A stretch of 43,886 bases of DNA, from positions 1 to 43,886 of the forward strand of contig JAPLJV010000060.1 of NCBI GenBank assembly GCA_026388415.1. The letters run 5' to 3'. A program made the position numbers and the translations under genes. This document shows positions 1-13,020 of this stretch, piece by piece. Position 1 is the stretch's first letter; every line of letters begins with the position of its first letter. The DNA is from Deltaproteobacteria bacterium (lineage in GTDB: Bacteria; Desulfobacterota; Syntrophia; Syntrophales; JACQWR01). A model generated the notes under the pieces. The model was not told where the DNA came from and searched no databases. It saw nothing but the letters and a program-made list of their open reading frames with translations.

Positions 1-164
1 TGACCAAGGCATGTCACCCCCCAGCCCGAGGTGAAGTCTATATACCTGTTCCCTGCTTCATCCCATACTTGGACGCCGGCACCTCTCTCAATTGAGACAG
101 GTATCTTTCTAAAAAATAGTGGGGTGCATTTATCTTCCACCTGCATTGTCTTTGATGCTGTCAT
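1..164 (-). CDS. Class-III (acetylornithine/ornithine-type) aminotransferase, N-terminal part, cut by the window edge
   Basis: The first 54 codons of a gene that continues past base 1, read leftward from an ATG at 162–164. The segment includes IERGAGVQVWDEAGNRYIDF followed by TSGWGVTCLG. This is the typical N-terminal pattern of PLP-dependent class-III aminotransferases (ArgD and relatives), where a strand with V-W-D-x-x-G-x-x-Y-[IL]-D-F precedes a small-residue loop ending in LGH; the next codon begins CA, which allows His. The PLP lysine would lie outside the window. A purine-rich taagg stretch lies about 3 bases upstream of the ATG; a second in-frame ATG is six codons in. The family is fairly clear. 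The substrate (acetylornithine, succinylornithine, 4-aminobutyrate or another) cannot be told from this part. Confidence 0.75.
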   Translation of the reverse strand, partial: MTASKTMQVEDKCTPLFFRKIPVSIERGAGVQVWDEAGNRYIDFTSGWGVTCLG

Positions 165-942
165 TGCCTTATTCCATTATAGCTAACACTCATGTTTTGT
201 TTACCTGGGTACGACGCGATGTAAAGATTTTGAACTTTTATATAAATATGTTTCATGTCGTAACTTGTCCCGCGAGATCGGTAAATTTGGCTACTTCACT
301 TTATTCCCGCTTGAAATCAGGCAATTTGTCAAGGTCACATTTTACCGATAGCGGGAAGTTGTCCACACCCCCGCCCACTTGCGCCTCTCGGTTGTCTATC
401 ATCAACACGACGGAAAAGTCCACCGAATATATTTTGTTACGGCCAGGTAGGGGGGAGGGAACGGTTCAAATTTTTTGAAATTTCACGAGGATCGGTTTCT
501 GTGCCGGCAATATGATTTTGGACGAAGGGGGGCGGGAGAATTCAGGGAATTCCGAGGACATAATACCAATTAAAGGCATTGACCTGCTGGTAGTCTGTAC
601 TATGCCCCCCGATTATTAAATGTAAAAAAAGTTGACTTGATATGCCATGGAGATTATATCCACCACATGGCATGGGGCGTTGAATATGCCGATGCCATGG
701 GAGGCGGCTTGGAGATCACCGCAATATTTCCCGATGGGGCGATTCAGATCAGTCAATTTGAAGGCATTGCCGCAAAGACAGAAAGGGGCAGTCTACCGAG
801 TTCTGATTGAAAGATGTTAAATCCTGGCAGTGGATATTCTTTTCATTTAAGGGGTATATAGCTTCCTGAAGGAGAGCATTGGGTAATTTTGACGGGTGTA
901 CTTTCTTTTAAATGATATTCAATAAACAGAGGAGCAACCGCT
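165..942. other. Gene-poor intergenic region with possible mobile-element debris
   Basis: No convincing complete gene is seen here. An inverted pair ttcccgct/agcgggaa (about 303–357) encloses the phrase gtcaaggtcacattttacc, which reminds me of degenerate insertion-sequence ends, but no transposase remains. Around 540–575 gaattcagggaattccgagg forms a partial palindrome of the kind found beside REP-associated transposases. From 631 to 810 one plus frame stays open and reads protein-like (MGGGLEITAIFPDG occurs in it), but it has no good start and I recognise no family. Possible promoter elements are TTGACT (632–637) with TATATC 17 bases later (655–660), and TTGACG at 889–894 with a weak -10, either of which could serve the transporter at 943. 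All of this is low-confidence reading. Confidence 0.35.
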
Positions 943-2199
943 TTGCATAAACCAAAATTGCACTACGCCTGGGTCATTGTGGGCGCCGGGGTCATCGGGG
1001 TTATGGCCTCCCTGGGGCTCGGGCGTTTCAGTTATGCCGTGATCCTGCCGGCCATGAAAGATGCTCTGGAGCTTAACTACGGGCAAATGGGGCTTTTGGG
1101 AACCGGCAACCTGGCAGGTTACCTCTGTTTTTCACTGTTTGGAGGTTTTCTTGCGTCGCGCTATGGCACTAAAATTGTGATCGTTCTCTCTTTGGTTTTC
1201 ATGACGATTACTCTGATGCTGACCGGCATGGCAGGAGGATTTTATGGCACCCTGGCCGCCAGAATTTTCACAGGGGTCGGTAGTGCGGGCGCCAACGTGC
1301 CTATCATGGGCCTGGCCTCGGCCTGGTTTTCCACGCGGCGACGGGGACTGGCCGCAGGTATTCTCGTGTCCGGTTCCGGTTTGGGAGTATTGGCGACTGG
1401 TATCTTCCTGCCCGAAGTAATCAAGGCTTACGGCGCCGACGGCTGGCGCTGGGCTTGGTATTATCTGGCCGCCCTGTCACTGGTGATCACCTTGATTTGC
1501 CAATTGCTGTTGAAAGACACACCCGCAGAGAAAAATCTCTCCCCCTGCGGAACAGAAGCGGCAGTATTCACGACGGCGCCCGCCCGGGAACAGGGCAACA
1601 AAACCACCACCATTCCTTTGGACTGGGGGAAGGTGTACAAGAACCCGGCCCTATGGCAACTGGGGCTGGTTTACTTTGCCTTCGGCTTTTCTTATATTGT
1701 CTACGCCACTTTTTTCCCCGCGCACGTGATTAAAGCGGGTAATCTCAGCCAGGCCGAGGCCGGCCGAATCTGGTCGCTCGTGGGCTTCGTGAGTATGGCC
1801 AGCGGCTTTATCGGGGGGGGCATTTCCGACCTGATCGGGCGCCGTGCTGCGCTTTGCATCGTCTTTTGCCTGCACACCCTGTCCTTTGCCACTTTTGCTT
1901 ACTCCACCAGCGTAATTGGTTTTTATGTCTCCGCCCTGGCCTTCGGCATCTCCGCCTGGAGTATTCCTTCCATTGTCGCCGCTTTTTCCGGCGACATCGT
2001 CGGGGCGCGCCTGGCGCCGGCAGCCGTGGGAGCGGTCACCGTTGTCTTTAGCATTGGTCAGGCCCTGGCGCCCTACGTGGCCGGCAGATTAGCCGACGCG
2101 TCGGGCACTTTTTTCTCCTCCTTCGTGCTGGCCGCCCTGGTAGCTTTGGGAGGAGCAGTCGGAGCGCTGTTCTTGAATAAAAGCGAAAAAGCAGTCTAA
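943..2199 (+). CDS. Major facilitator superfamily transporter (YbfB/YjiJ-like)
   Basis: A 418-residue polytopic membrane protein with about twelve hydrophobic segments, split by a hydrophilic loop near residues 190–225 as expected for the centre of an MFS protein. The first segment carries LGLGRFSYAVILPAMK, a pattern typical of the YbfB/YjiJ branch, and the loop between helices 2 and 3 carries GGFLASRYGTK, close to the MFS signature. The start is TTG, chosen because gaggag lies 9 bases upstream and the protein begins directly before helix 1. The substrate is unknown. It is a single gene, convergent with ahcY, with only 43 bases between the two stops. Confidence 0.85.
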   Translation: MHKPKLHYAWVIVGAGVIGVMASLGLGRFSYAVILPAMKDALELNYGQMGLLGTGNLAGYLCFSLFGGFLASRYGTKIVIVLSLVFMTITLMLTGMAGGFYGTLAARIFTGVGSAGANVPIMGLASAWFSTRRRGLAAGILVSGSGLGVLATGIFLPEVIKAYGADGWRWAWYYLAALSLVITLICQLLLKDTPAEKNLSPCGTEAAVFTTAPAREQGNKTTTIPLDWGKVYKNPALWQLGLVYFAFGFSYIVYATFFPAHVIKAGNLSQAEAGRIWSLVGFVSMASGFIGGGISDLIGRRAALCIVFCLHTLSFATFAYSTSVIGFYVSALAFGISAWSIPSIVAAFSGDIVGARLAPAAVGAVTVVFSIGQALAPYVAGRLADASGTFFSSFVLAALVALGGAVGALFLNKSEKAV

Positions 2200-2242
2200 A
2201 AAATAACCCTGCTGCAAAAATATTAATTTCTTCTTATTCGTT

Positions 2243-3661
2243 CTAATACCGGTAGTAATCAGGCTTGAAAGGACCCTCCACAGGTATGCAAAGATAATCA
2301 GCCTGCTTCTGAGTCAGCGTAGATAGCCTTACATCCAGTCGCTCCAGATGCATACTGGCCACCTCCTCGTCGAGTTTCTTGGGCAACGTATAGACTGCGG
2401 GCAGCAATTTTTTGGTGGCCAATTCTATCTGGGCGAGGCATTGATTAGTAAAACTGGTGCTCATCACAAAGCTGGAATGTCCCGTTGCACAGCCCAGATT
2501 GACAAGTCTGCCCTCCGCCAGCACGATGATGGAGCGTCCTGATTTAAAGAGCCATTTATCAACCTGCGGCTTGATATTCGTCTTTTTGCAGCCCCGATTG
2601 GTTTCCAGGTAGTGCATGTCAATTTCGCTGTCGAAATGGCCGATGTTGCAAACAATTGCCTCATTTTTCATTCTTTCCATATCAGCGCCTGTTATGACAT
2701 CACAGCAGCCCGTGGCCGTCACGAAAATGTCACCGGCGTCGACGACATCGGCCATAGTCTTGACTTCATATCCTTCCATGGCCGCCTGCAAGGCACAGAT
2801 AGGGTCTATTTCCGTGATGATGACTCTGGCCCCGAGCCCCCGCATGGACTGGGCGCAGCCCTTGCCGACATCGCCGTAACCGCAGACGACAACCATCTTG
2901 CCGGCCACCATGACATCCGTGGCCCGCTTGATGCCGTCCACAAGCGACTCCCGACAGCCGTAAAGATTATCGAATTTGGATTTTGTGACCGAATCGTTCA
3001 CATTAATGGCGGGGAAAAGCAGCTCACCGGCCTGGGCCATCTGATAGAGGCGATGCACCCCCGTCGTCGTCTCTTCGGAAACGCCGCGGATGCCGGCGCC
3101 TACCTTTTGCCAACGCTTGGGATCACGACTGAAACTCAGCTTGAGGCGGTCCATGATTACCTGGAACTCCTTGTTGTCATAAGACTTTTCCAGAAGGGAG
3201 GGATCTTTTTCCACCTTTATGCCCTGATGCACTAACAAGGTGGCGTCACCACCATCGTCCACAATCAAATCAGGCCCCGAGCCGTCCGGCCAGGTAAGCG
3301 CCTGCTCCGTACACCACCAGTAATCTTCGAGGGTTTCGCCCTTCCAGGCAAATACGCCGGCGGAATTGGCCTTCGCTATGGCAGCAGCGGCATGGTCCTG
3401 GGTAGAAAAAATATTGCAGGATGCCCACCGGATATCTGCCCCCAGTTCCTGCAAGGTTTCTATCAGCATGGCGGTCTGGATAGTCATGTGCAGGCTACCC
3501 ATTACTTTCAATCCCGCCAATGGCTTTGAAAAACCATACTTTTTCCTCACGGCCATCAAACCAGGCATTTCATTTTCAGCCATATCAAGTTCCTTGCGGC
3601 CCCATTCGGCCAGAGAAATATCGGCGACCTGATATTTTAGCGCTTTGTCAATTTCCTTCAT
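2243..3661 (-). CDS. ahcY: Adenosylhomocysteinase (S-adenosylhomocysteine hydrolase)
   Basis: Converts S-adenosylhomocysteine reversibly to adenosine and homocysteine, removing the product inhibitor of SAM-dependent methyltransferases. The 472-residue protein matches the long bacterial form. Visible landmarks are the substrate-domain motif [14 protein letters not shown], the catalytic-region [20 protein letters not shown], the NAD-binding [23 protein letters not shown], and the C-terminal KPDYYRY, whose lysine and tyrosine reach the neighbouring subunit's NAD. An aggagaaa ribosome-binding site precedes the ATG. It is the last gene of the pan–metK run, 34 bases after metK, so SAM synthesis and SAH clearance are probably co-transcribed. 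Confidence 0.97.
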
Positions 3662-3695
3662 TTAAACTTTCTCCTGTGCGTATGATTTCAATATT

Positions 3696-4874
3696 TTAGG
3701 CGCTGGCTCCTGCCTTGAGTTTGGCAACCATATCCGTCTTTTCCCAAGGGTAATCGTCCATGAAAAGCGTCCGGGGCAGTTTCCGGTAGATGTCGGGATT
3801 GAGCAGATCAAAGCGCTCCATCATCCCCCGGGGCGTCAAATCAAAGAGCGTCTCGATAAGGGCGGCAATCTTGTTATCCGAAATACTGCCGGTGCCAAAG
3901 GTGCTTACATAGATGGAAAAGGGCTTGGCGATACCGATCGCGTAAGAGAGCTGTACGGAACATTTGGTCGCCAAACCGGCAGCGACAATGTTCTTGGCCA
4001 CGTAGCGCGAACCGAAGGCTGCCGAACAATCTACCTTTTCAGGCGATTTATTTACAACCGCACCGCCGCCCAACTGCGCGCCCGGATAGCCGCCATAAAA
4101 TTGAACCACTAATTTGCGACCCGTAATGCCGGAATCGGCCGCACTGCATGAATTTACCGACTGCCATTCCCCGGTGGGATTAAAGAAGAAGGCCGTTTTC
4201 TCATCCACCCATTTACCGAGGGAAGCCATGGCTATGCGTCTGGCCTGATCGGCAACGCCGGCCCTGGCATCGTCAGCCACTCGTCTGTAATCAATGGCAT
4301 TCGACATCAGTACCTTCGCCACGCGGACAGGCTTTCCCTGATCGTTGTAGTCCACTGTCACCTGCCCCTTACCGTCCGGGGCAAAGATGGGATTCCTGCA
4401 ATTTTCAAAAGCCCGCATCATATTGTTTACGAGCACATAGGGCAGGGGAAGCAATTCCGGTGTTTCGTTGCAGGCAAATCCATAGATGATCCCCTGGTCG
4501 CCGGCGCCGATTTCCTTATACAGGCCGAGTTCCGCCCGCGTACCAATATTGATGTCGCAGGACTGGGGAATAATCGTATTCAAGATGCCCATGGAACTTC
4601 CGTCCAGGCCCAGAATGGGATCATTATAGCCCAGTGTCAGCACGACATTGCGGACGCACTTGTCCACATCCACGTATACGCGTGTGGAAACTTCGCCGCC
4701 CACAACACAGAGCCCCTTTCCTAAAAATACCTCCACCCCACAGTGCGGCATGTTGTCAATGGTCATGCCGGTTTTTTTCTCTTCCAGCAAAATATCAGCA
4801 ATAATGTTGGCGGCAATGTGATCCGCCACCACGTCCGGATGCCCGACCTTGACACTTTCCGATGTAATCTGCAT
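3696..4874 (-). CDS. metK: S-adenosylmethionine synthetase, divergent form
   Basis: Makes SAM from methionine and ATP. The length (392 residues) and three-domain order fit bacterial MetK, and many landmarks are kept: GHPD near residue 12, GAGDQGIIYGFA, SGITGRK, KVDCSAAFGSRYVAKNIVAAG and SYAIGIAKPFSIYV. Several nearly invariant positions differ. GHPDK has become GHPDV, the GGPxGD stretch before the GRK loop reads SCSAAD, and the flexible HGGGAFSGKD loop reads LGGGAVVNKS, although its lysine is retained. The fold and most catalytic residues are present, so I expect an active but distinct subfamily. A strong aggagg site precedes the ATG. The gene lies between a DUF502 gene and ahcY. Confidence 0.92.
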   Translation of the reverse strand: MQITSESVKVGHPDVVADHIAANIIADILLEEKKTGMTIDNMPHCGVEVFLGKGLCVVGGEVSTRVYVDVDKCVRNVVLTLGYNDPILGLDGSSMGILNTIIPQSCDINIGTRAELGLYKEIGAGDQGIIYGFACNETPELLPLPYVLVNNMMRAFENCRNPIFAPDGKGQVTVDYNDQGKPVRVAKVLMSNAIDYRRVADDARAGVADQARRIAMASLGKWVDEKTAFFFNPTGEWQSVNSCSAADSGITGRKLVVQFYGGYPGAQLGGGAVVNKSPEKVDCSAAFGSRYVAKNIVAAGLATKCSVQLSYAIGIAKPFSIYVSTFGTGSISDNKIAALIETLFDLTPRGMMERFDLLNPDIYRKLPRTLFMDDYPWEKTDMVAKLKAGASA

Positions 4875-4909
4875 TTAACCTCCTATAAACAGCTTTCTTA
4901 AGACAATTT

Positions 4910-5533
4910 TTATATAATAGCTTTTCGCTCCGTGGGCGTCACTATGCCCGCTGAAATAATGAGAGTGAAGGCCTCTTCAACTGACATATCCAGATAGATA
5001 AGTTCATCTTCCGGCATGATCATGTACAACCCCGTCGTCGGATTGGGCGCGGTAGGCATAAAAACACTTACGTATTGAGCATTGTTGCCCACCTTGGCAC
5101 TGATTTCCCCTTCGATAATACCGGTAATGAATCCAACGGAATAGGTGTTTTTACTCGGAAAATGGAACATAACAACTTTTTTGAAACTGGCGCTGCGATC
5201 AGCGAACATGGTGTCCGCGATCTGCTTTATGGCTTGATATATGCTTCTGATGAAGGGTATTTTATCAAGCAAGCCTTCGCCCATCTTCACTATCTTGTTG
5301 CCGAAATAACTCTTAGCAATCAGACCACACAGAAGAATCAAGGCCACCGTAACGATAACGCCCAGGCCCGGTATGTGGAAGGGCAGAAAAACGTCCGGTT
5401 GATACCGATCGGGAACGATCAGCACAAGGCTATCCATCATTTCAATGAGAAAGATGAAGATGTAAATCGTCAATCCTACCGGCATGACCACAGCCAGGCC
5501 GGTAAAAAATATACTCTTTAAATTCCTTTTCAA
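4910..5533 (-). CDS. DUF502 family membrane protein
   Basis: A 207-residue inner-membrane protein of the DUF502 family. It has two N-terminal membrane segments (about residues 8–34 and 52–72), then the family's IPFIRSIYQAIKQIADTMF stretch, and a soluble beta-rich C-terminal half with FMPTAPNPTTGLYMIMPEDE. No biochemical role is assigned to the family with certainty. The start is TTG, preceded by ggag at 9 bases; no nearer ATG fits. It lies 98 bases after panD and 35 bases before metK, so it probably belongs to the same transcription unit, but its position does not reveal its function. Confidence 0.88.
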   Translation of the reverse strand: MKRNLKSIFFTGLAVVMPVGLTIYIFIFLIEMMDSLVLIVPDRYQPDVFLPFHIPGLGVIVTVALILLCGLIAKSYFGNKIVKMGEGLLDKIPFIRSIYQAIKQIADTMFADRSASFKKVVMFHFPSKNTYSVGFITGIIEGEISAKVGNNAQYVSVFMPTAPNPTTGLYMIMPEDELIYLDMSVEEAFTLIISAGIVTPTERKAII

Positions 5534-5631
5534 TACTAACGAACTCCAAAAATCATTTGAGCGGCGTTAAAGCGGGCTGATGCTTAACAAAAAGATTTTA
5601 GTTTTACAACACTTATCTTCTGCTTTTTCCG

Positions 5632-5988
5632 CTATTTTTGCTTCTTTATTCTGTTTTGTTCATCCAGAAGGATACATGTTGGAGACCAGCGTTTTGCTTC
5701 CGCATCATCCAGGAGGATGTAGGTAGCAATGATGATCAGATCGCCCCGGGAAACTTTCCTGGCCGCAGCACCGTTCAAACATATTACCCCGCTGCCCCTT
5801 TGTCCCTTGATGGCGTAGGTTGAAAATCGCTCTCCATTGGATATATCGTAAATGGCCACCTTTTCATAAGGTATAATTTCCGCGGCTTCCATAAGCCCTT
5901 CGTCAATGGAGATACTCCCCTCATAATGCAGGTCGGCATCGGTAACGGTAGCACGGTGTAGTTTTGATTTGAGCATAAATCTTTGCAT
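5632..5988 (-). CDS. panD: Aspartate 1-decarboxylase precursor
   Basis: Produces beta-alanine from aspartate for pantothenate synthesis. It is made as a proenzyme that cleaves itself between Gly and Ser to create a pyruvoyl cofactor; the site is in [10 protein letters not shown], around residues 23–24. Other family marks are [16 protein letters not shown] at the N-terminus, [13 protein letters not shown] and NGAAARK. The length of 118 residues is normal. I chose the ATG at 5988 rather than the one three codons earlier because the aagga ribosome-binding site abuts the earlier ATG but is well placed for this one. It starts 18 bases after panC, so the two are co-transcribed and supply both halves of the panC reaction from one message. 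Confidence 0.95.
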
Positions 5989-6006
5989 GGTTTCCATCCT
6001 TTATTT

Positions 6007-6876
6007 TTAAAAAAGGGCAATATTAAGTGGTTCACCGAAGACATGATTATCAATCAGCCTCGTTCTGCCGATCTTCACCGCCAAGGCTAATAAAGCTTCC
6101 TCTCCCAATTGCGCCAGGTCTCGAAGAGTTAAAATACTGCATATTTTAGCATATTCAAGCTGTATCAATGGATTCTTCGCCAGGCGATTCCTCACCGCCT
6201 GCAATATCCTGGCGGCATCACGCTCGCCGTCATCATACAACCGTTTTGCCAACAGGAGTGATTGGCTTAAACTGAGCGCCGCCTCTCTTTCCTTTTCCTG
6301 CAAATAGGTATTTCTGGAACTCATAGCGAGACCATCCACTTCCCTTACGGTGGGCATTCCGATGATTTCCAGATCCAGGTTCAGGTCTTCCACCATCCGC
6401 CGGATAACCACCAACTGCTGAAAATCTTTCTTGCCGAAAATCGCCACCTGGGGTTTGACTATGTTGAACAGCTTGCAGCAGACTGTGGCCACACCACGGA
6501 AGTGGCCTTGCCTCGTTAGCCCACAAAGATTTTGCGTCACTTCTTCCAAATTTATAAAAGTCTGATAATGTTCAGGATACATATCGCTGCCGGCTGGACA
6601 AAAGATGACGTCTGTGCCAACACTGGCAGCCATTTGCGAGTCTTTGTCAAAATCCCGGGGGTATTTTTCGAAATCTTCTCCCACACCAAACTGGATCGGG
6701 TTGACGTATATGCTCAGCACCAGGCAGTCTTCCCTTTGTCTTCCTTCCCGCAGCAGATGCAAGTGCCCTGCGTGCAGATAACCCATGGTAGGAACAAAGG
6801 AGATCGTTTGGCCTGCTTGCCGGAGCTGCCGGGAAAAGGCCTGCATTTCTTTTACCGATTGAATTATTTTCATCAT
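6007..6876 (-). CDS. panC: Pantothenate synthetase (pantoate–beta-alanine ligase)
   Basis: Joins pantoate and beta-alanine with ATP to make pantothenate, the precursor of coenzyme A. The 289-residue protein shows the nucleotidyltransferase signature FVPTMGYLHAGHLHLL (HxGH), the ATP-site FGKKDFQQL, and VREVDGLAMSSRN, the KMSKS-like loop. Two adjacent ATG codons (6876 and 6873) are possible. The aggg site lies 4 and 7 bases upstream of them respectively, so the second may be used. It is the first gene of panC–panD–DUF502–metK–ahcY. An intrinsic terminator ends less than 10 bases before the start codon, so transcription must pass through it, which suggests attenuation control. panB is not in the window. 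Confidence 0.96.
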   Translation of the reverse strand: MMKIIQSVKEMQAFSRQLRQAGQTISFVPTMGYLHAGHLHLLREGRQREDCLVLSIYVNPIQFGVGEDFEKYPRDFDKDSQMAASVGTDVIFCPAGSDMYPEHYQTFINLEEVTQNLCGLTRQGHFRGVATVCCKLFNIVKPQVAIFGKKDFQQLVVIRRMVEDLNLDLEIIGMPTVREVDGLAMSSRNTYLQEKEREAALSLSQSLLLAKRLYDDGERDAARILQAVRNRLAKNPLIQLEYAKICSILTLRDLAQLGEEALLALAVKIGRTRLIDNHVFGEPLNIALF

Positions 6877-6884
6877 TTACCCTA

Positions 6885-6917
6885 TAAAAAAAGCCCCCTG
6901 TCGCAGACAGGAGGCTT
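6885..6917 (-). terminator. Intrinsic terminator (probable attenuator) immediately upstream of panC
   Basis: On the minus strand a 12-base-pair stem (arms 6906–6917 and 6891–6902, one mismatch, three-base loop) is followed by seven consecutive T residues (6892–6886). This is a clear Rho-independent terminator. It begins 128 bases after the Yip1-family gene stop and ends about 8 bases before the panC start, leaving no room for a promoter in between. It can serve either as the end of the pgk–truA–Yip1 transcript with partial read-through, or as a regulated attenuator for the pan operon. The leader just upstream can form a competing helix. Confidence 0.8.
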
Positions 6918-7044
6918 GTACATTCAACTATATACCCAAAACTCACCTCCGTCCCAGTCCGTCTGTCGGATCCAAGCGGTGCTTTCCCCTACACAATTTT
7001 TTACTGTTCGTCAAGCAATTTTCTCGATGCCAGAACCAGGAAAA
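6918..7044 (-). promoter_or_regulatory. Putative structured leader / antiterminator of the pan operon
   Basis: This stretch between the Yip1-family gene and the panC terminator contains short hairpins (aagc-acc-gctt; tccg-acaga-cgga) and, at about 6946–6953, gacggagg. That segment can pair with cctcctgtc, the 5' arm of the terminator (one bulged base), so the two structures exclude each other. A TTGACG (7014–7009) could be a -35 element, but no good -10 follows. The pan RNA motif is a known conserved leader of panB/C/D operons, reported also from deltaproteobacteria, and is one candidate identity. I cannot verify the match by eye. Confidence 0.5.
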
Positions 7045-7824
7045 CTATTTTTTCTCCTGTCCGGGGATCTGACCCTTCATTGCTTCCTGCATCTGCTTGG
7101 CCGCCTCTTCTATCTGTTTCTGTTGTTCGGCAGTCATCGCTCCCCCCTGAGGCACTTTGGAAAGATCCTCCATCTTCCTGGCAGCTTCGCCCATATCTCT
7201 AACGGCCTTTTCGGTGGCTTTCTGCATACTGGCGCTCGGCACAGGGCCCGACACAGGGGAGGAGATGAAGATGCGCGACGCAAAGCCAATGACCACGGCA
7301 ATGATGATAGCGGCGATAACGACGGCAGCTGTATATCCTAATGCTTTCTCCTTGGGGGACTTCATGAGAATCGGAATGCCCGTGTAAATCAGATATAAAC
7401 CATAAAGCCCCAGAATCATGAGGGGGCTTAAGGCGGGAATGATGGCAAACACCCCGGTCACCCAGCCTGCGGTATAGGAGTACGCCGCCAGCTTGAGAGA
7501 CTGATTGAAATCCTTTGTTCCGGCAAATTGGGGAGCGAGGTAGTCTATTATCAAGGCCAGTATATATACCCCCACCAGGTTGAGAACATACTGGACAACA
7601 GCGGAACTGAGGGAGCTTGTGAGTGGAAGCCGGTATGTTCCGATAAATGGCATGCTGATACCAATAATCGTCATCCCGATGATCGAAGCCACCGGACCAA
7701 TTGCGGCCAGCGGGATGATATAGTTTTTATACAGCTCCGCTGTATTTGTGGTCTCGCCGGAAATGACCTCCCATTCCTTTTGAGGTTGAAGCAAAATCCC
7801 TTTGACACGCTCAACTAAATTCAT
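7045..7824 (-). CDS. Yip1-domain membrane protein
   Basis: A 259-residue inner-membrane protein. The N-terminus (MNLVERVKGILLQPQKEWEV) is typical of bacterial Yip1-domain proteins and is followed by about five hydrophobic helices between residues 33 and 183. The C-terminal 70 residues are hydrophilic, rich in Glu, Lys, Gln and Met, and probably form a coiled coil outside the membrane. An aaaggagg site precedes the ATG by 6 bases. It follows truA by 34 bases and is probably the last gene of pgk–truA–yip1. The function of bacterial Yip1 proteins is not settled. The pattern fits the family well. Confidence 0.8.
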   Translation of the reverse strand: MNLVERVKGILLQPQKEWEVISGETTNTAELYKNYIIPLAAIGPVASIIGMTIIGISMPFIGTYRLPLTSSLSSAVVQYVLNLVGVYILALIIDYLAPQFAGTKDFNQSLKLAAYSYTAGWVTGVFAIIPALSPLMILGLYGLYLIYTGIPILMKSPKEKALGYTAAVVIAAIIIAVVIGFASRIFISSPVSGPVPSASMQKATEKAVRDMGEAARKMEDLSKVPQGGAMTAEQQKQIEEAAKQMQEAMKGQIPGQEKK

Positions 7825-7858
7825 TTTGGCCTCCTTTTAAATTGCAAAAAAATCTTGT

Positions 7859-8596
7859 TTAATACTTCACCTCCACCAGAAATAATCCCTGCGGCGGCGC
7901 GGTTATACCGGCGCTTCTACGTTCTTTGGCCTGCAAAACGTTTAATAATTCTTCCGGGGTTCTCTTCCCTCGGCCCACTTCAACCAGCGTACCCACCAAT
8001 GACCTTACCATATATCTTAAGAACCCATCGGCTTCCAGGTAAATATTGATAATTCCCGAAGTCATTTTTTCCAGTCGCACATCTGTAACAGTTCTGATGC
8101 AATTGTAATCGCCTACCTTTTTGCCGCAAAAAGCCGTAAAGTCATGCCGCCCCTTAAGAACAGAGAGCCCCTTTTCCATCTCCATTAAATTAAGCGGAGT
8201 ACGGACATACCAGGCATATTTGCGGTACAGCGCCGATCGGGTTGGACTGTTAAATATCTGATACATATAGACTTTGCTCTTGGCATCGAAACGGGCATGG
8301 AAAGATTCGGATACTTCCTGAAGTTCTTTAACGACAATATCGCCCGGTAAAAGGCTGTTCATGCCCGCCAAAAGATTTGAGGCACTGATGCCGGAGCTGG
8401 TTTTAAAATGCGCGGTCTGTTTGAGGGCATGAACGCCCGCATCTGTCCTGCCTGAACCGAAAATGGCCACCCTCTCCCTTGTGATGCGAAAGACAATGTC
8501 TTCCAGAACCTGCTGAACAGTAGCAGGGTCCCGCTGCCTTTGCCACCCGTGATAACCGGCGCCATCATATTCCACGACCATCTTCAGATTACGCAC
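7859..8596 (-). CDS. truA: tRNA pseudouridine(38–40) synthase
   Basis: Isomerises uridines 38, 39 and 40 in the anticodon arm of tRNAs. The motif GSGRTDAGVHALKQTAHFKT holds the catalytic aspartate. EYDGAGYHGWQRQ near the N-terminus and a C-terminal FLRYMVRSLVGTLVEVGRG complete the family pattern. The reading frame is open far upstream inside pgk, but homology starts at VVEYDGAG. I place the start at the GTG at 8596, which has aaggg 6 bases upstream and lies one base after the pgk stop, giving 245 residues, normal for TruA. An ATG at 8581 is an alternative. Translation is probably coupled to pgk. Confidence 0.94.
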   Translation of the reverse strand: MRNLKMVVEYDGAGYHGWQRQRDPATVQQVLEDIVFRITRERVAIFGSGRTDAGVHALKQTAHFKTSSGISASNLLAGMNSLLPGDIVVKELQEVSESFHARFDAKSKVYMYQIFNSPTRSALYRKYAWYVRTPLNLMEMEKGLSVLKGRHDFTAFCGKKVGDYNCIRTVTDVRLEKMTSGIINIYLEADGFLRYMVRSLVGTLVEVGRGKRTPEELLNVLQAKERRSAGITAPPQGLFLVEVKY

Positions 8597-8597
8597 T

Positions 8598-9782
8598 TCA
8601 ACCCTTGCCGTCCAGGGCTTCAATCGCCGGCAGCTTCTTCCCGCCCAACAGTTCCATGGACGCTCCACCTCCTGTGGAAATATAGGTAATCCGGTCGCTT
8701 TCACCCGTCCTGTTAATAGCCACATCCGTATCCCCGCCTCCGACGATGGTTGTGGCATACGAATTTGCCAGGCTGTGCGTGAGGGCGGTCGTGCCTCTGC
8801 TGAAGGCATCAATTTCAAAAACGCCCATGGGACCATTCCACACAATCGTTTTGGCATTACTCAAGGCTTCCGTAAAAAGCGTGATGGTAGCCGGACCGAT
8901 GTCCAGACCCATCCAGTTGGGATTGATCTCTTGAACAGGTACAATTTTAGTTTCCGCCTCGGCACTTTTTGCCTCGGCAATGACACAATCCACCGGCAGG
9001 TAAAATTTGACCTTTAAAACTTTTGCCCGATCCATCACATCCCGTGCCGTCTCCAACAGATCGTCTTCAACGAGCGACTTTCCCACCTCATAACCGAGCG
9101 CTTTCAGAAAAGTAAAGGCCATCCCGCCGCCGATAATCAACTTATCCACCTTGTTGATGAGATGCAGCAATGCCTGCAGCTTGCCCGAAACCTTGGAACC
9201 GCCGGCAATGGCAACAAAAGGCCGGATGGGGCTGTCAACCGCCTTAATCAAATAGTTGAGTTCTTTTTTAATCAGAAAGCCGGCCCCGCAATCCTTGACA
9301 AACTTTGTGATACCGACATTCGAGGCATGACGCCGGTGAGCATTGCCAAAGGCATCATCAATATACACATCGGCAAACTTGGCCAATTCCTGGGCGAAGC
9401 CTGGATCATTAGCCTCTTCCTCCGCATGAAATCTCAGGTTTTCCATCAGCAGGACGCTCCCCGGCTTTAGTCCGTCCACTAACTCTGCCACAGCAGCGCC
9501 TATGCAATCGTTGGCCAGGCGGACTTCTTTGTCTAAGAGCCGCGACAATCGTTTCGCCACGGGGGCCAGGCTGAATTCGGGAGTCACCTTACCCTTCGGC
9601 CTGCCCAGATGGGACATGATGATAACTCTAGCTCCTTCGTCGAGGGCATAATTTATCGTGGGGAGGACAGCGCGGATTCTGATATCGTCGGTGATATTTA
9701 AACTGCTATCCAGGGGAACATTAAAATCAAACCGAAAAAGAACTCTTTTACCTTTGATGTTGATCTGGTCAATAAACAGCAT
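8598..9782 (-). CDS. pgk: Phosphoglycerate kinase
   Basis: Transfers a phosphate between 1,3-bisphosphoglycerate and ADP in glycolysis and gluconeogenesis. Visible marks are [14 protein letters not shown] at the N-terminus, MSHLGRPKG, the hinge-region [35 protein letters not shown], and the C-terminal nucleotide loop [10 protein letters not shown] followed by [14 protein letters not shown]. The ATG at 9782 is preceded by aggaggg and gives 394 residues, the usual length; the ATG seven codons earlier has no such site. It is first in pgk–truA–yip1 and divergent from the carboxyltransferase gene, with about 200 bases between the start codons. gap is not adjacent in this window. Confidence 0.97.
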
Positions 9783-9984
9783 AGCCCCTCCTACAGAATT
9801 CATTTTTGCACCGCCAGTATATCTCACCTTTTCAATCCGGTCAATACGAAAATATGATAAATTCCAGACATTAAAGTATGGTTGGTAGCTCCAGGGCAAT
9901 AAATATCTTGAAATTATGAACCTTATTAAGTAACGTTCAAGCAAAACAATACCTGCTTTTAATCAAATGGGAGTTTGTGCTTTT

Positions 9985-11553
9985 ATGGAAAAAGAATTGC
10001 CAGTCCCCACGGAAAAGAAAATTAGAGAGTTTGAAATAACGAGAGATAAATTGATGACCATGGGCGGAGAAAACATGATCCAGCGGCAGCATGAACTGGG
10101 GAAGCTTTCCGCCCGTGAAAGACTCGATGTACTCTTCGACGCCGAGACCTTTCAGGAATCACAGCTTTTCGTTAAACACCATTCAACTCTCTTCGGTATG
10201 GAAAAAAAAGAAATCCCTGGCGATGGCGTAATAACCGGGTTTGGCAAGGTCAATGGACGGATCGTTTTTGCTGCCGCTCAGGATTTCACGAGCGCGGGCG
10301 GAAGTCTCGGTGAAATGCACGCCAAAAAAATATGGAAAGTCATGGATATGGCCATAGCCGCCGGGAAACCGTTTATTGCGCTGAACGATTCCGGAGGGGC
10401 GCGCATTCAGGAAGGCGTACCCTCGTTGGATGGTTGCGGCGGCATCTTCTACCGCAACGTTCTGGGATCGGGTTATATTCCCCAGATTACCGCTATTATG
10501 GGACCTGCCGCCGGAGGCGCCGTTTACTCGCCGGCTCTTACGGACTGGGTTTTCATGGTTAAAGGCAGCAGTTACATGTACGCCACCGGACCGGCAGTGG
10601 TAAAATCCGTCATTGGCGAGGACGTTACCCACGAGGAGTTAGGTGGCGCCCTGGTCCACGCCACCAAAAGCGGCGTTTGTCACTTCGTGGCCGTAAGTGA
10701 TCAGGACTGCATTGAAAAAATCAAGACGCTGCTTTCCTATGTGCCCGACAACTGTCACAGTCCCCTGCCGACCGTTACCTGCCAGGACAATGCCCTCCGG
10801 GAATGCCCCGACCTGGACACGATTATCCCCGACAGGTCAAACCAGGCTTACGATATGAAAAATGTTATCATGTGTGTCGCCGACAATAATGAAATTTTCG
10901 AACTTCACGAACTTTGGGCCAAGAATCTCATGGTGGCTTTTATCAGAATGATGGGCCGCCCGGTCGGTGTTATTGCCAACAACCCCCAATATGGCGCCGG
11001 CGTCCTGGATGTTAATGCGTCCGACAAGGCCTCACGTTTTATCCGTTTTTGCGATGCCTTTAATATCCCTCTCTTAACCTTCGCCGATGTTCCTGGTTAT
11101 ATGCCGGGAACACGCCAGGAATGGTCGGGGATTATCAGTCACGGCGCGAAACTCCTGCACGCTTATTCAGAAGCCACTGTCCCCAAGATAACCGTCGTTA
11201 TCCGCAAGGATTACGGGGGCGCCTATATCGGCATGTGCAGTAAACAATTGGGCGCCGATTACGTCATGGCCTGGCCGACAGCAGAGATTGCGGTGATGGG
11301 CGCAGAGGGAGCCTGCAACATCATTTACAATCGTGAAATTTCCTCAGCCGCTGATCCGGGAGCCAAGCGGCAGGAGTTGATTAATGCGTATGAGAAACAG
11401 TTTAATAATCCGTATTTCTCCGCCGGGATGGGAATTATAGACGAAATCATCGCCCCACGCGAGACGAGAAAAAGGGTCGCCGAGCTGCTGGAAGCACTTA
11501 AAGACAAGTCAGAAGCCAGACCGAAAAAGAAGCATGGCAATATACCTTTGTAA
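9985..11553 (+). CDS. Acyl-CoA carboxyltransferase subunit (methylmalonyl-CoA decarboxylase alpha / propionyl-CoA carboxylase beta family)
   Basis: The biotin-dependent carboxyltransferase component that moves CO2 between biotin and an acyl-CoA. The 522-residue protein has both crotonase-like halves. The first holds GGARIQEGVPSL and MGPAAGGAVYSPALTDW; the second holds GYMPGTRQEWSGIISHGAKL, VIRKDYGGAYIGMCSK and WPTAEIAVMGAEGA. This subgroup includes MmdA, PccB and glutaconyl-CoA decarboxylase alpha, which I cannot separate by eye. No biotin carrier, biotin carboxylase or sodium-pump gene is next to it, so the partners are elsewhere. I chose the ATG at 9985 because homology begins near there and gggag lies upstream; an in-frame ATG is six codons earlier. 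Confidence 0.9.
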   Translation: MEKELPVPTEKKIREFEITRDKLMTMGGENMIQRQHELGKLSARERLDVLFDAETFQESQLFVKHHSTLFGMEKKEIPGDGVITGFGKVNGRIVFAAAQDFTSAGGSLGEMHAKKIWKVMDMAIAAGKPFIALNDSGGARIQEGVPSLDGCGGIFYRNVLGSGYIPQITAIMGPAAGGAVYSPALTDWVFMVKGSSYMYATGPAVVKSVIGEDVTHEELGGALVHATKSGVCHFVAVSDQDCIEKIKTLLSYVPDNCHSPLPTVTCQDNALRECPDLDTIIPDRSNQAYDMKNVIMCVADNNEIFELHELWAKNLMVAFIRMMGRPVGVIANNPQYGAGVLDVNASDKASRFIRFCDAFNIPLLTFADVPGYMPGTRQEWSGIISHGAKLLHAYSEATVPKITVVIRKDYGGAYIGMCSKQLGADYVMAWPTAEIAVMGAEGACNIIYNREISSAADPGAKRQELINAYEKQFNNPYFSAGMGIIDEIIAPRETRKRVAELLEALKDKSEARPKKKHGNIPL

Positions 11554-11568
11554 AAGTTGAGGGCAGAT

Positions 11569-13020
11569 TTAATCCCGGTGCAGCGACTTCAAAAGCCTTT
11601 TTATGACGGCTGGCTTACCTAAAACAGCCACTAATTTATCCAACTCCGGTCCCTGGGTGCAACCGGTAAGGGCACAGCGGATAGGCAAAAAGAGCGTGCG
11701 GCCTTTCATGGAGGTAGATAGCTGTACACTATTAATGGCCCATTCGTAATAATTCTTTTCCGGACATTCCCTGGAATTAAGACTTTCATAAAATTGCCCG
11801 ACGATCCGCCGGGCCTCTTCGCCCTCCAACAAAGCATTCGCCGCCGGAGATAATTCGTATTTTTCATTATTAAAGATTGGCAGATAGTCTTTTATTTCCG
11901 ACAAAGTGCGAAGATTTCCTTGGACGGCGGCGGCAATTGCTGAAACCGGCGGGTAGCCGGGATCATGGTCGCCCTCATAGCCCGCTTCGCGCATAAATGG
12001 CAGTAACAATTCAGATAATATTTCCGGAGGACATTTTTTTATATAAATGCCGTTCAGCCAGCTAAGTTTGTCTTCGTCAAATATGGCCGCGCTCTTACCC
12101 GTATTAACGATGCTAAATATCTTTATGATTTCTGATATATCAAATACTTCACGGCCCTCCCCAAAGGAATTGCCCATTAAAGCAAGATAATTTATAAGAA
12201 CTTCCGGCAAATAGCCGCGACTTCTGAATTCCCGAACAGATACAGAGCCGTGTCGCTTGCTTAATTTTGTCCGGTCCTTGCCCAGGATAAGGGAATGGTG
12301 AGCAAAAACGGGGCAGGAAAAACCCCAGGCACGGTAAAGCAGTATCTGCACCGCCGTATTGGACAGATGATCCTCGCCCCTGATGACATGACTGATATTC
12401 ATGAGATGGTCATCAATAACCACGGCAAAATTATAAGCTGGCAACCCGTTGGAACGAACGATGATAAAATCGCCCAGAGCGCGGCCATCGAACTTCATGG
12501 CGCCGCGGATCATGTCGGCAAATTCGATGGGGCCGTCCTCCACCCTGAAACGCCAGGCCGGCCGTCTTCCCTCATCTTCACGTATCTTACGATCTTCCTT
12601 AGTCAAATTACGGCATTTCCCCATATATCTCGGCATCATCCGGCGAGCGACCAGGCTTGCCCTTTCGGCCGCCAGTTCCTCTTCCGAACAGTAACAAGGA
12701 TATACCTTTCCTAACGCAATCAGCTCAGACAAATGAGAATTATAGATTCCCAGGCGCTCCGTCTGGTGGTAGGGGGCAAAGGGACCTCCTATCTCCGGCC
12801 CTTCGTCCCAGTCAATGCCGAGCCACCGTAAGTCATCAAGAAGATTTTGTTCGAAGGTTTTTGTGGTTCTCAATTGATCGGTATCTTCGATCCGGAGGAT
12901 GAAATAACCACCATGCTGCCTGGCAAACAGCCAGTTAAAAAGAGCCGTCCGGGCATTGCCCACATGGAGTTCTCCCGTCGGAGACGGGGCAAATCTGACT
13001 CTTGGTCTGGCGATATTCAA
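11569..13020 (-). CDS. gltX: Glutamyl-tRNA synthetase
   Basis: Charges tRNA-Glu with glutamate. It is a class-I synthetase with the HIGH-type motif in RFAPSPTGELHVGNARTALF (HVGN), the catalytic-domain motif EDTDQ, and KLSKRHG (KMSKS class), then an alpha-helical anticodon-binding C-terminal half. The length of 483 residues is normal. It starts at TTG: the sequence TTGA makes the ispF stop (TGA) overlap the gltX start, and ggag lies 9 bases upstream inside the ispF 3' end. This points to translational coupling in ispD–ispF–gltX. Whether it also charges tRNA-Gln cannot be seen. Confidence 0.96.
   Translation of the reverse strand: MNIARPRVRFAPSPTGELHVGNARTALFNWLFARQHGGYFILRIEDTDQLRTTKTFEQNLLDDLRWLGIDWDEGPEIGGPFAPYHQTERLGIYNSHLSELIALGKVYPCYCSEEELAAERASLVARRMMPRYMGKCRNLTKEDRKIREDEGRRPAWRFRVEDGPIEFADMIRGAMKFDGRALGDFIIVRSNGLPAYNFAVVIDDHLMNISHVIRGEDHLSNTAVQILLYRAWGFSCPVFAHHSLILGKDRTKLSKRHGSVSVREFRSRGYLPEVLINYLALMGNSFGEGREVFDISEIIKIFSIVNTGKSAAIFDEDKLSWLNGIYIKKCPPEILSELLLPFMREAGYEGDHDPGYPPVSAIAAAVQGNLRTLSEIKDYLPIFNNEKYELSPAANALLEGEEARRIVGQFYESLNSRECPEKNYYEWAINSVQLSTSMKGRTLFLPIRCALTGCTQGPELDKLVAVLGKPAVIKRLLKSLHRD

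Follow-up and report, generated by a model that had tools for sequence, protein, structure and literature searches.

Sequence comparison and folding calculations suggest that the pan RNA (RF01749) upstream of panC, here reduced to a single hairpin, very probably serves panC-panD and the genes that follow them (DUF502-metK-ahcY) as an OFF switch at the level of transcription. The operon lies on the minus strand of the window, the whole stretch of 43,886 nucleotides analysed here. NCBIfam and Pfam profiles confirmed all five gene names assigned in an earlier note made from the sequence alone:

6007..6876, minus strand: panC, pantoate-beta-alanine ligase (TIGR00018, 318 bits)
5632..5997, minus strand: panD, aspartate 1-decarboxylase (TIGR00223, 166 bits)
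4910..5533, minus strand: DUF502 membrane protein (PF04367)
3696..4874, minus strand: metK, methionine adenosyltransferase (TIGR01034)
2243..3661, minus strand: ahcY, adenosylhomocysteinase (TIGR00936)

The leader is flanked upstream by a Yip1-domain gene that ends at 7045 and downstream by panC, which starts at 6876. Read 5' to 3' on the minus strand, it comprises a promoter-like element, the pan hairpin, a spacer and an intrinsic terminator, followed by panC:

6986..7014, minus strand: putative sigma-70-like promoter (-35 TTGACG at 7014-7009, 17-nt spacer, -10 TAGGGG at 6991-6986)
6949..6979, minus strand: pan hairpin (RF01749, single copy), CCGCUUGG-A-UCCG-ACAGA-CGGACUGGG-A-CGG, identified by Rfam, a leave-family-out model and covariation
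6971, minus strand: conserved bulged A of the 5' side, unpaired in the fold and invariant in 70 relatives
6952, minus strand: conserved bulged A of the 3' side, unpaired in the hairpin fold, invariant in 70 relatives and paired in the antiterminator
6945..6954, minus strand: 3' pan strand of the antiterminator, GGACGGAGGU, which pairs with 6915-6905 in the fold of 6980-6903
6891..6917, minus strand: intrinsic terminator stem-loop of 12 pairs with a U-run at 6892-6886, identified by its fold and by covariation in relatives

The pan hairpin (12 bp, about 32 nt) had escaped the earlier note, which named the pan motif as one candidate for the leader and proposed an Rfam search. With the Rfam cut-offs applied, no family was reported within the window. 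At an open threshold pan was indeed the best Rfam family for the leader (E = 0.035), with a score of 24.0 bits that falls below the gathering score of 36.2 bits. The RF01749 model spans two hairpins, of which the second matches the leader near-perfectly and the first is placed over the promoter region. A one-hairpin covariance model, trained without the window and its sole family member, gave the hairpin of the leader a score of 47.9 bits (E = 4.9e-10). This was the only credible match in the 2.79-Mb genome, where the next reached 17.7 bits. Low-score Rfam matches to HBV epsilon, the L10 leader, PyrR and the Phe leader overlie the terminator and fit no context, and were rejected.

The hairpin is widespread among relatives. 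Our sample comprised 60 genomes of the same order (Syntrophales), and the 52 with panC were searched for panC together with pan. Of the 52, 50 carry a same-strand pan match at a distance of 60-117 nt 5' of panC, and most of these matches score under the Rfam cut-off. One of the two remaining leaders is a stretch of N; the other (L106, in genome G020) has neither the hairpin nor the terminator. When a model trained only on panC leaders was run on 155 genomes of the order, 144 of them gave hairpins. Two in one genome were common, the second being located 5' of a DUF2520 gene that is followed by panB. The hairpin also occurs in named records, which carry the labels Syntrophaceae, Syntrophus, Syntrophales and 'Deltaproteobacteria' and on whose basis the window genome is assigned to Syntrophales. 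The hairpin sequence is conserved over several phyla. The Rfam ranking, the matches in relatives, the two bulged A's and the leave-family-out score together support the pan candidate, and the leader is best described as a single-hairpin form of pan RNA that the Rfam cut-off misses.

Pan RNA was described in 2010 by Weinberg et al., with delta-proteobacteria within the original range and with most, not all, examples in tandem arrangement (PMC2864571). Like RF01749, which is known before panB/panC/panD operons, the window leader is located upstream of panC-panD and has a stem with two conserved bulged A's; its core, CGCUUGGAUCC...GGACUGGGACGG, is near-identical to the consensus CuGCCUgGAUCc...gGACcGGGACaG. 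Unlike the usual tandem, the window form is a single hairpin at the predicted transcript start, scores below the gathering threshold and is fused to a terminator, its 3' strand being shared, a mechanism absent from the short main-text description in the 2010 paper. We did not find a tandem copy in 82 leaders, where the first-hairpin pattern gave two matches, both by chance. In 81 of the 82, the promoter sits where the first hairpin would be: TTGACR occurs 35-50 nt 5' of the pan core in 81, and TGnTA at -10 in 74, the TAGGGG of the window being a weak -10 box. From this position we infer that the transcript begins at or a few nucleotides before the hairpin, with a predicted start near A6980 in the window, which would therefore leave no room for a tandem copy.

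Covariation indicates that the hairpin is maintained as a structure. Across 70 distinct hairpins from relatives, 96.3% of the pairs are kept and double-sided changes occupy 39 cells, compared with 6.5 in shuffles. The covariation score is 0.186 versus 0.117 when shuffled; none of 500 shuffles reaches it, and slid versions of the pairing fail the test. Compensatory changes are accompanied by one-sided U-A/U-G alternation, and two conserved pairs are of the G-U type (U-G in 69 of 70, G-U in 58 of 70), indicating that the hairpin acts as RNA. The terminator stem also covaries in relatives, and the spacer shows no conservation across them. The whole 161-nt leader folds with z = -1.9 only, because promoter DNA is included.

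The terminator is the top-ranked terminator-like site within positions 1-12000, with a fold of -20.1 kcal/mol (z = -5.3) that none of 200 shuffles equals. A gap of 9 bases separates the end of its U-run from the first in-frame ATG of panC (6876; the panC profile match begins at the second ATG, 6873) and therefore no promoter fits between them. This agrees with the earlier note, which had placed a strong terminator fewer than 10 bases from panC with no space for a promoter.

The sequence GACGGAGG, at 6953-6946 on the minus strand, pairs with the terminator 5' arm with one bulge, the position and complementarity both being as first reported. The pan hairpin draws on the same GACGG bases, which puts the two helices in competition. 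In the window, the duplex between the pan 3' strand and the terminator arm has an energy of -12.7 kcal/mol, within the best 3.5% relative to unrelated terminator arms. Mean values with the leader's own terminator arm are -11.4 kcal/mol for leaders of the order and -10.5 kcal/mol for those of the wider loci, versus -5.5 kcal/mol for 400 unrelated arms from the same contigs, and 95% and 88% of leaders, respectively, fall within the best fifth. At the wider loci the terminator arm reads CCUUCUG or CCUUCCGG, versus CCUCCCGUC in the order, and is again complementary to the pan strand. The pairing is weak in a few leaders, such as L065, L081 and L120.

Partition-function folding at equilibrium is consistent with switching. 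Before the terminator 3' arm emerges, the antiterminator displaces pan P1 (probability below 0.5) in 70 of 82 leaders; with unrelated terminator arms swapped in, displacement falls to 31%. In complete leaders the terminator and pan P1 coexist, with mean probabilities of 0.90 and 0.81. The window behaves likewise, as the fold of 6980-6903 contains the antiterminator (6954-6945/6915-6905) and that of 6980-6884 contains the pan hairpin and the terminator (-36.3 kcal/mol, z = -3.7). The duplex energies and folds support the attenuator design with mutually exclusive helices that the earlier note had proposed. The covariation of the antiterminator in relatives for which it had asked was not seen in the strict sense. 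Complementarity is conserved, with 82.8% of cells paired versus 38-58% when slid, but covariation did not exceed shuffles in a fixed-column test, which has low power because the pan 3' strand hardly varies. The comparisons with unrelated terminator arms given above are the stronger tests and took its place.

We propose that transcription starts almost at the pan hairpin, and that the pan 3' strand (GGGACGGAGG) then either stays in the hairpin or pairs with the terminator 5' arm. Without a signal, the antiterminator would form and panC would be transcribed. An effector that holds the pan hairpin would leave the terminator free to form as the leader is transcribed, stopping transcription 9 bases 5' of panC; the sign of regulation is thus taken to be negative. 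The effector is likely to be either a pantothenate/CoA pathway product or a protein sensor of such a product. As in terminator-type riboswitches and attenuators, an aptamer-like hairpin, an antiterminator and a terminator are mutually exclusive in the window leader; unlike in those systems, sensing would fall to a single unbranched hairpin of about 32 nt.

The link with pantothenate genes is evident from gene order. The best 30 fetched Rfam pan matches all precede panC(-panD), DUF2520-panB or panB, and 99 of 107 hairpins at the wider loci are directly 5' of panB, panC, panD or DUF2520. The DUF2520 proteins (Pfam PF10728) at these loci are, we assume, panG candidates. PanG (YkpB) is a ketopantoate reductase of B. 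subtilis (PMC11487621). Seven of the eight exceptions were inspected by eye from translations, and the eighth ends at a contig end. Four of the seven (L208, L237, L267 and L277) have the pan hairpin and a terminator before operons of SIS-domain, HPS-like and ketopantoate-reductase-like (PanE-type) genes, with the panE-type gene last; formaldehyde-type sugar phosphate genes are apparently under pan control there. The other three begin with aldehyde:ferredoxin-oxidoreductase-like genes, with panB further down in two, and the third sequence ends earlier. The DUF2520-panB operon of the window genome (G000:C6, L147:480-2292) has a promoter and, unlike that of many relatives, no pan hairpin. A second pan element 5' of this operon was considered and rejected, as its leader does not have the length for one and the model yields nothing credible. 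Pan control therefore seems limited to panC-panD in this genome.

Since the operon includes metK and ahcY, and one or both follow panC-panD in most relatives, the leader might instead sense SAM, SAH or methionine, and the earlier note had left room for a SAM-related ligand. We consider this highly unlikely. There was no SAM or SAH riboswitch among the Rfam matches listed for the leader, at default or open threshold. The same hairpin also precedes panC-panD operons where metK was not found, as well as panB and DUF2520-panB operons without metK, which suggests that the signal is pantothenate/CoA rather than SAM. The comparison thus supports an element that follows pantothenate synthesis and not SAM metabolism. 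A stem at the predicted 5' end could also protect the mRNA, so that the pan hairpin would be a stabiliser only and the terminator an ordinary leaky one, for example that of the upstream Yip1-domain gene. This explanation without switching is improbable, because the hairpin and terminator recur, whereas that gene turned up in the window genome alone, and a conserved promoter separates it from the leader. Moreover, the complementarity of the terminator arm to the pan strand is far above that of unrelated terminators, and L106, the sole inspected leader that outright lacks the pan hairpin, lacks the terminator too. The inverted repeat adjoins the promoter, as a DNA operator for a repressor might, but we give little credence to this possibility: the G-U-type pairs, U-A/U-G alternation and compensatory changes are signatures of RNA pairing, the bulged A's spoil DNA symmetry and the repeat is coupled to the terminator. 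Least probable is ribosome-mediated attenuation by a leader peptide. At 6946 there is a frame that starts with GTG and has GGAGG upstream, but it continues into panC instead of forming a short leader ORF. An ORF of at least 8 codons that is preceded by a Shine-Dalgarno sequence and ends in the leader occurs in only 17 of 82 leaders, and the spacer is not conserved.

The OFF switch could be operated in more than one way. We assign slightly less than an even chance to a pan hairpin worked not directly by a metabolite but by an RNA-binding protein acting in trans. An unbranched hairpin of 32 nt is small for a metabolite aptamer. In PyrR-binding leaders (RF00515), a protein operates an anti-antiterminator hairpin before a biosynthetic operon; the match of the window leader to this family is weak and non-significant (E = 3.6), and the two leaders have no sequence relationship and precede different genes. 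The bulged-A hairpin of pan RNA has itself been taken as a possible binding site for a dimeric protein (Weinberg et al. 2010, PMC2864571). The lack of tandem copies in the order weakens the dimer argument, although metabolite binding is not thereby proved. In addition, operation by a protein has no known candidate protein, and sequence conservation over several phyla fits direct binding too. More tentatively, the single pan hairpin, at about 32 nt, may be sufficient to bind a metabolite as a minimal aptamer, with pantothenate, CoA or a phosphopantetheine intermediate as ligand, a reading that we regard as possible but doubtful. If true, it would constitute a vitamin B5/CoA riboswitch class, described as conspicuously missing in a 2022 review (PMC9971707). 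We found no ligand or mechanism for pan RNA in the open-access literature searched.

Several other pan loci differ in arrangement. At L205:2889-2921(+), L212:806-836(+) and about 22 more loci, in Thermodesulfobacteriota and Acidobacteriota, a deoxynucleoside-kinase gene (PF01712) extends with its 3' end into the hairpin, and panB is next. The 5' arm of the hairpin, CCGCTTGGATCC, encodes a C-terminal ..PLGS.., and the stop codon is in the loop or the 3' arm, so that part of the pan hairpin is coding sequence and the hairpin is inside an operon. Pan hairpins 5' of panB were identified in Acidobacteriota (Terriglobia; L211, L212, L218, L245, L249, L259, L264 and L268), which are outside the three phyla named in 2010 (PMC2864571). 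Three of these loci (L212, L218 and L259) were scanned at the Rfam gathering score, and no pan was reported. Many of these Acidobacteriota leaders have CCCTCTCTGTCC before panB in place of a terminator, and may perhaps represent a translational version of the switch. In the Syntrophales genome G036, a panB is preceded by a pan RNA of the classical tandem type that scores above the cut-off (L003:1501-1579(+)). This panB is only 45% identical to that of the window genome, suggesting joint horizontal transfer of RNA and gene. The panC leader L069 (genome G098, from the larger panC set) has a promoter, a terminator and, where a recognisable pan would be, a different hairpin, GCGUGAAAUUUCAGUCCACGC; panD was not found in this operon. 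The L069 hairpin may be either a degenerate pan or a replacement.

The pan class itself is already known, and delta-proteobacteria are already within its range. What our comparison would add is a lineage-wide single-hairpin form at the promoter that scores below the cut-off, an explicit terminator mechanism and a regulon of two operons. The two-hairpin Rfam model misses most of these single-hairpin RNAs. Across the order, pan RNA appears to be reduced to one conserved hairpin of 32 nt that carries its own readout in the form of a terminator. This form allows the sign of control to be predicted (operon OFF when the hairpin forms) and names the bases common to both states, and the ligand question thereby becomes testable by in vitro transcription.
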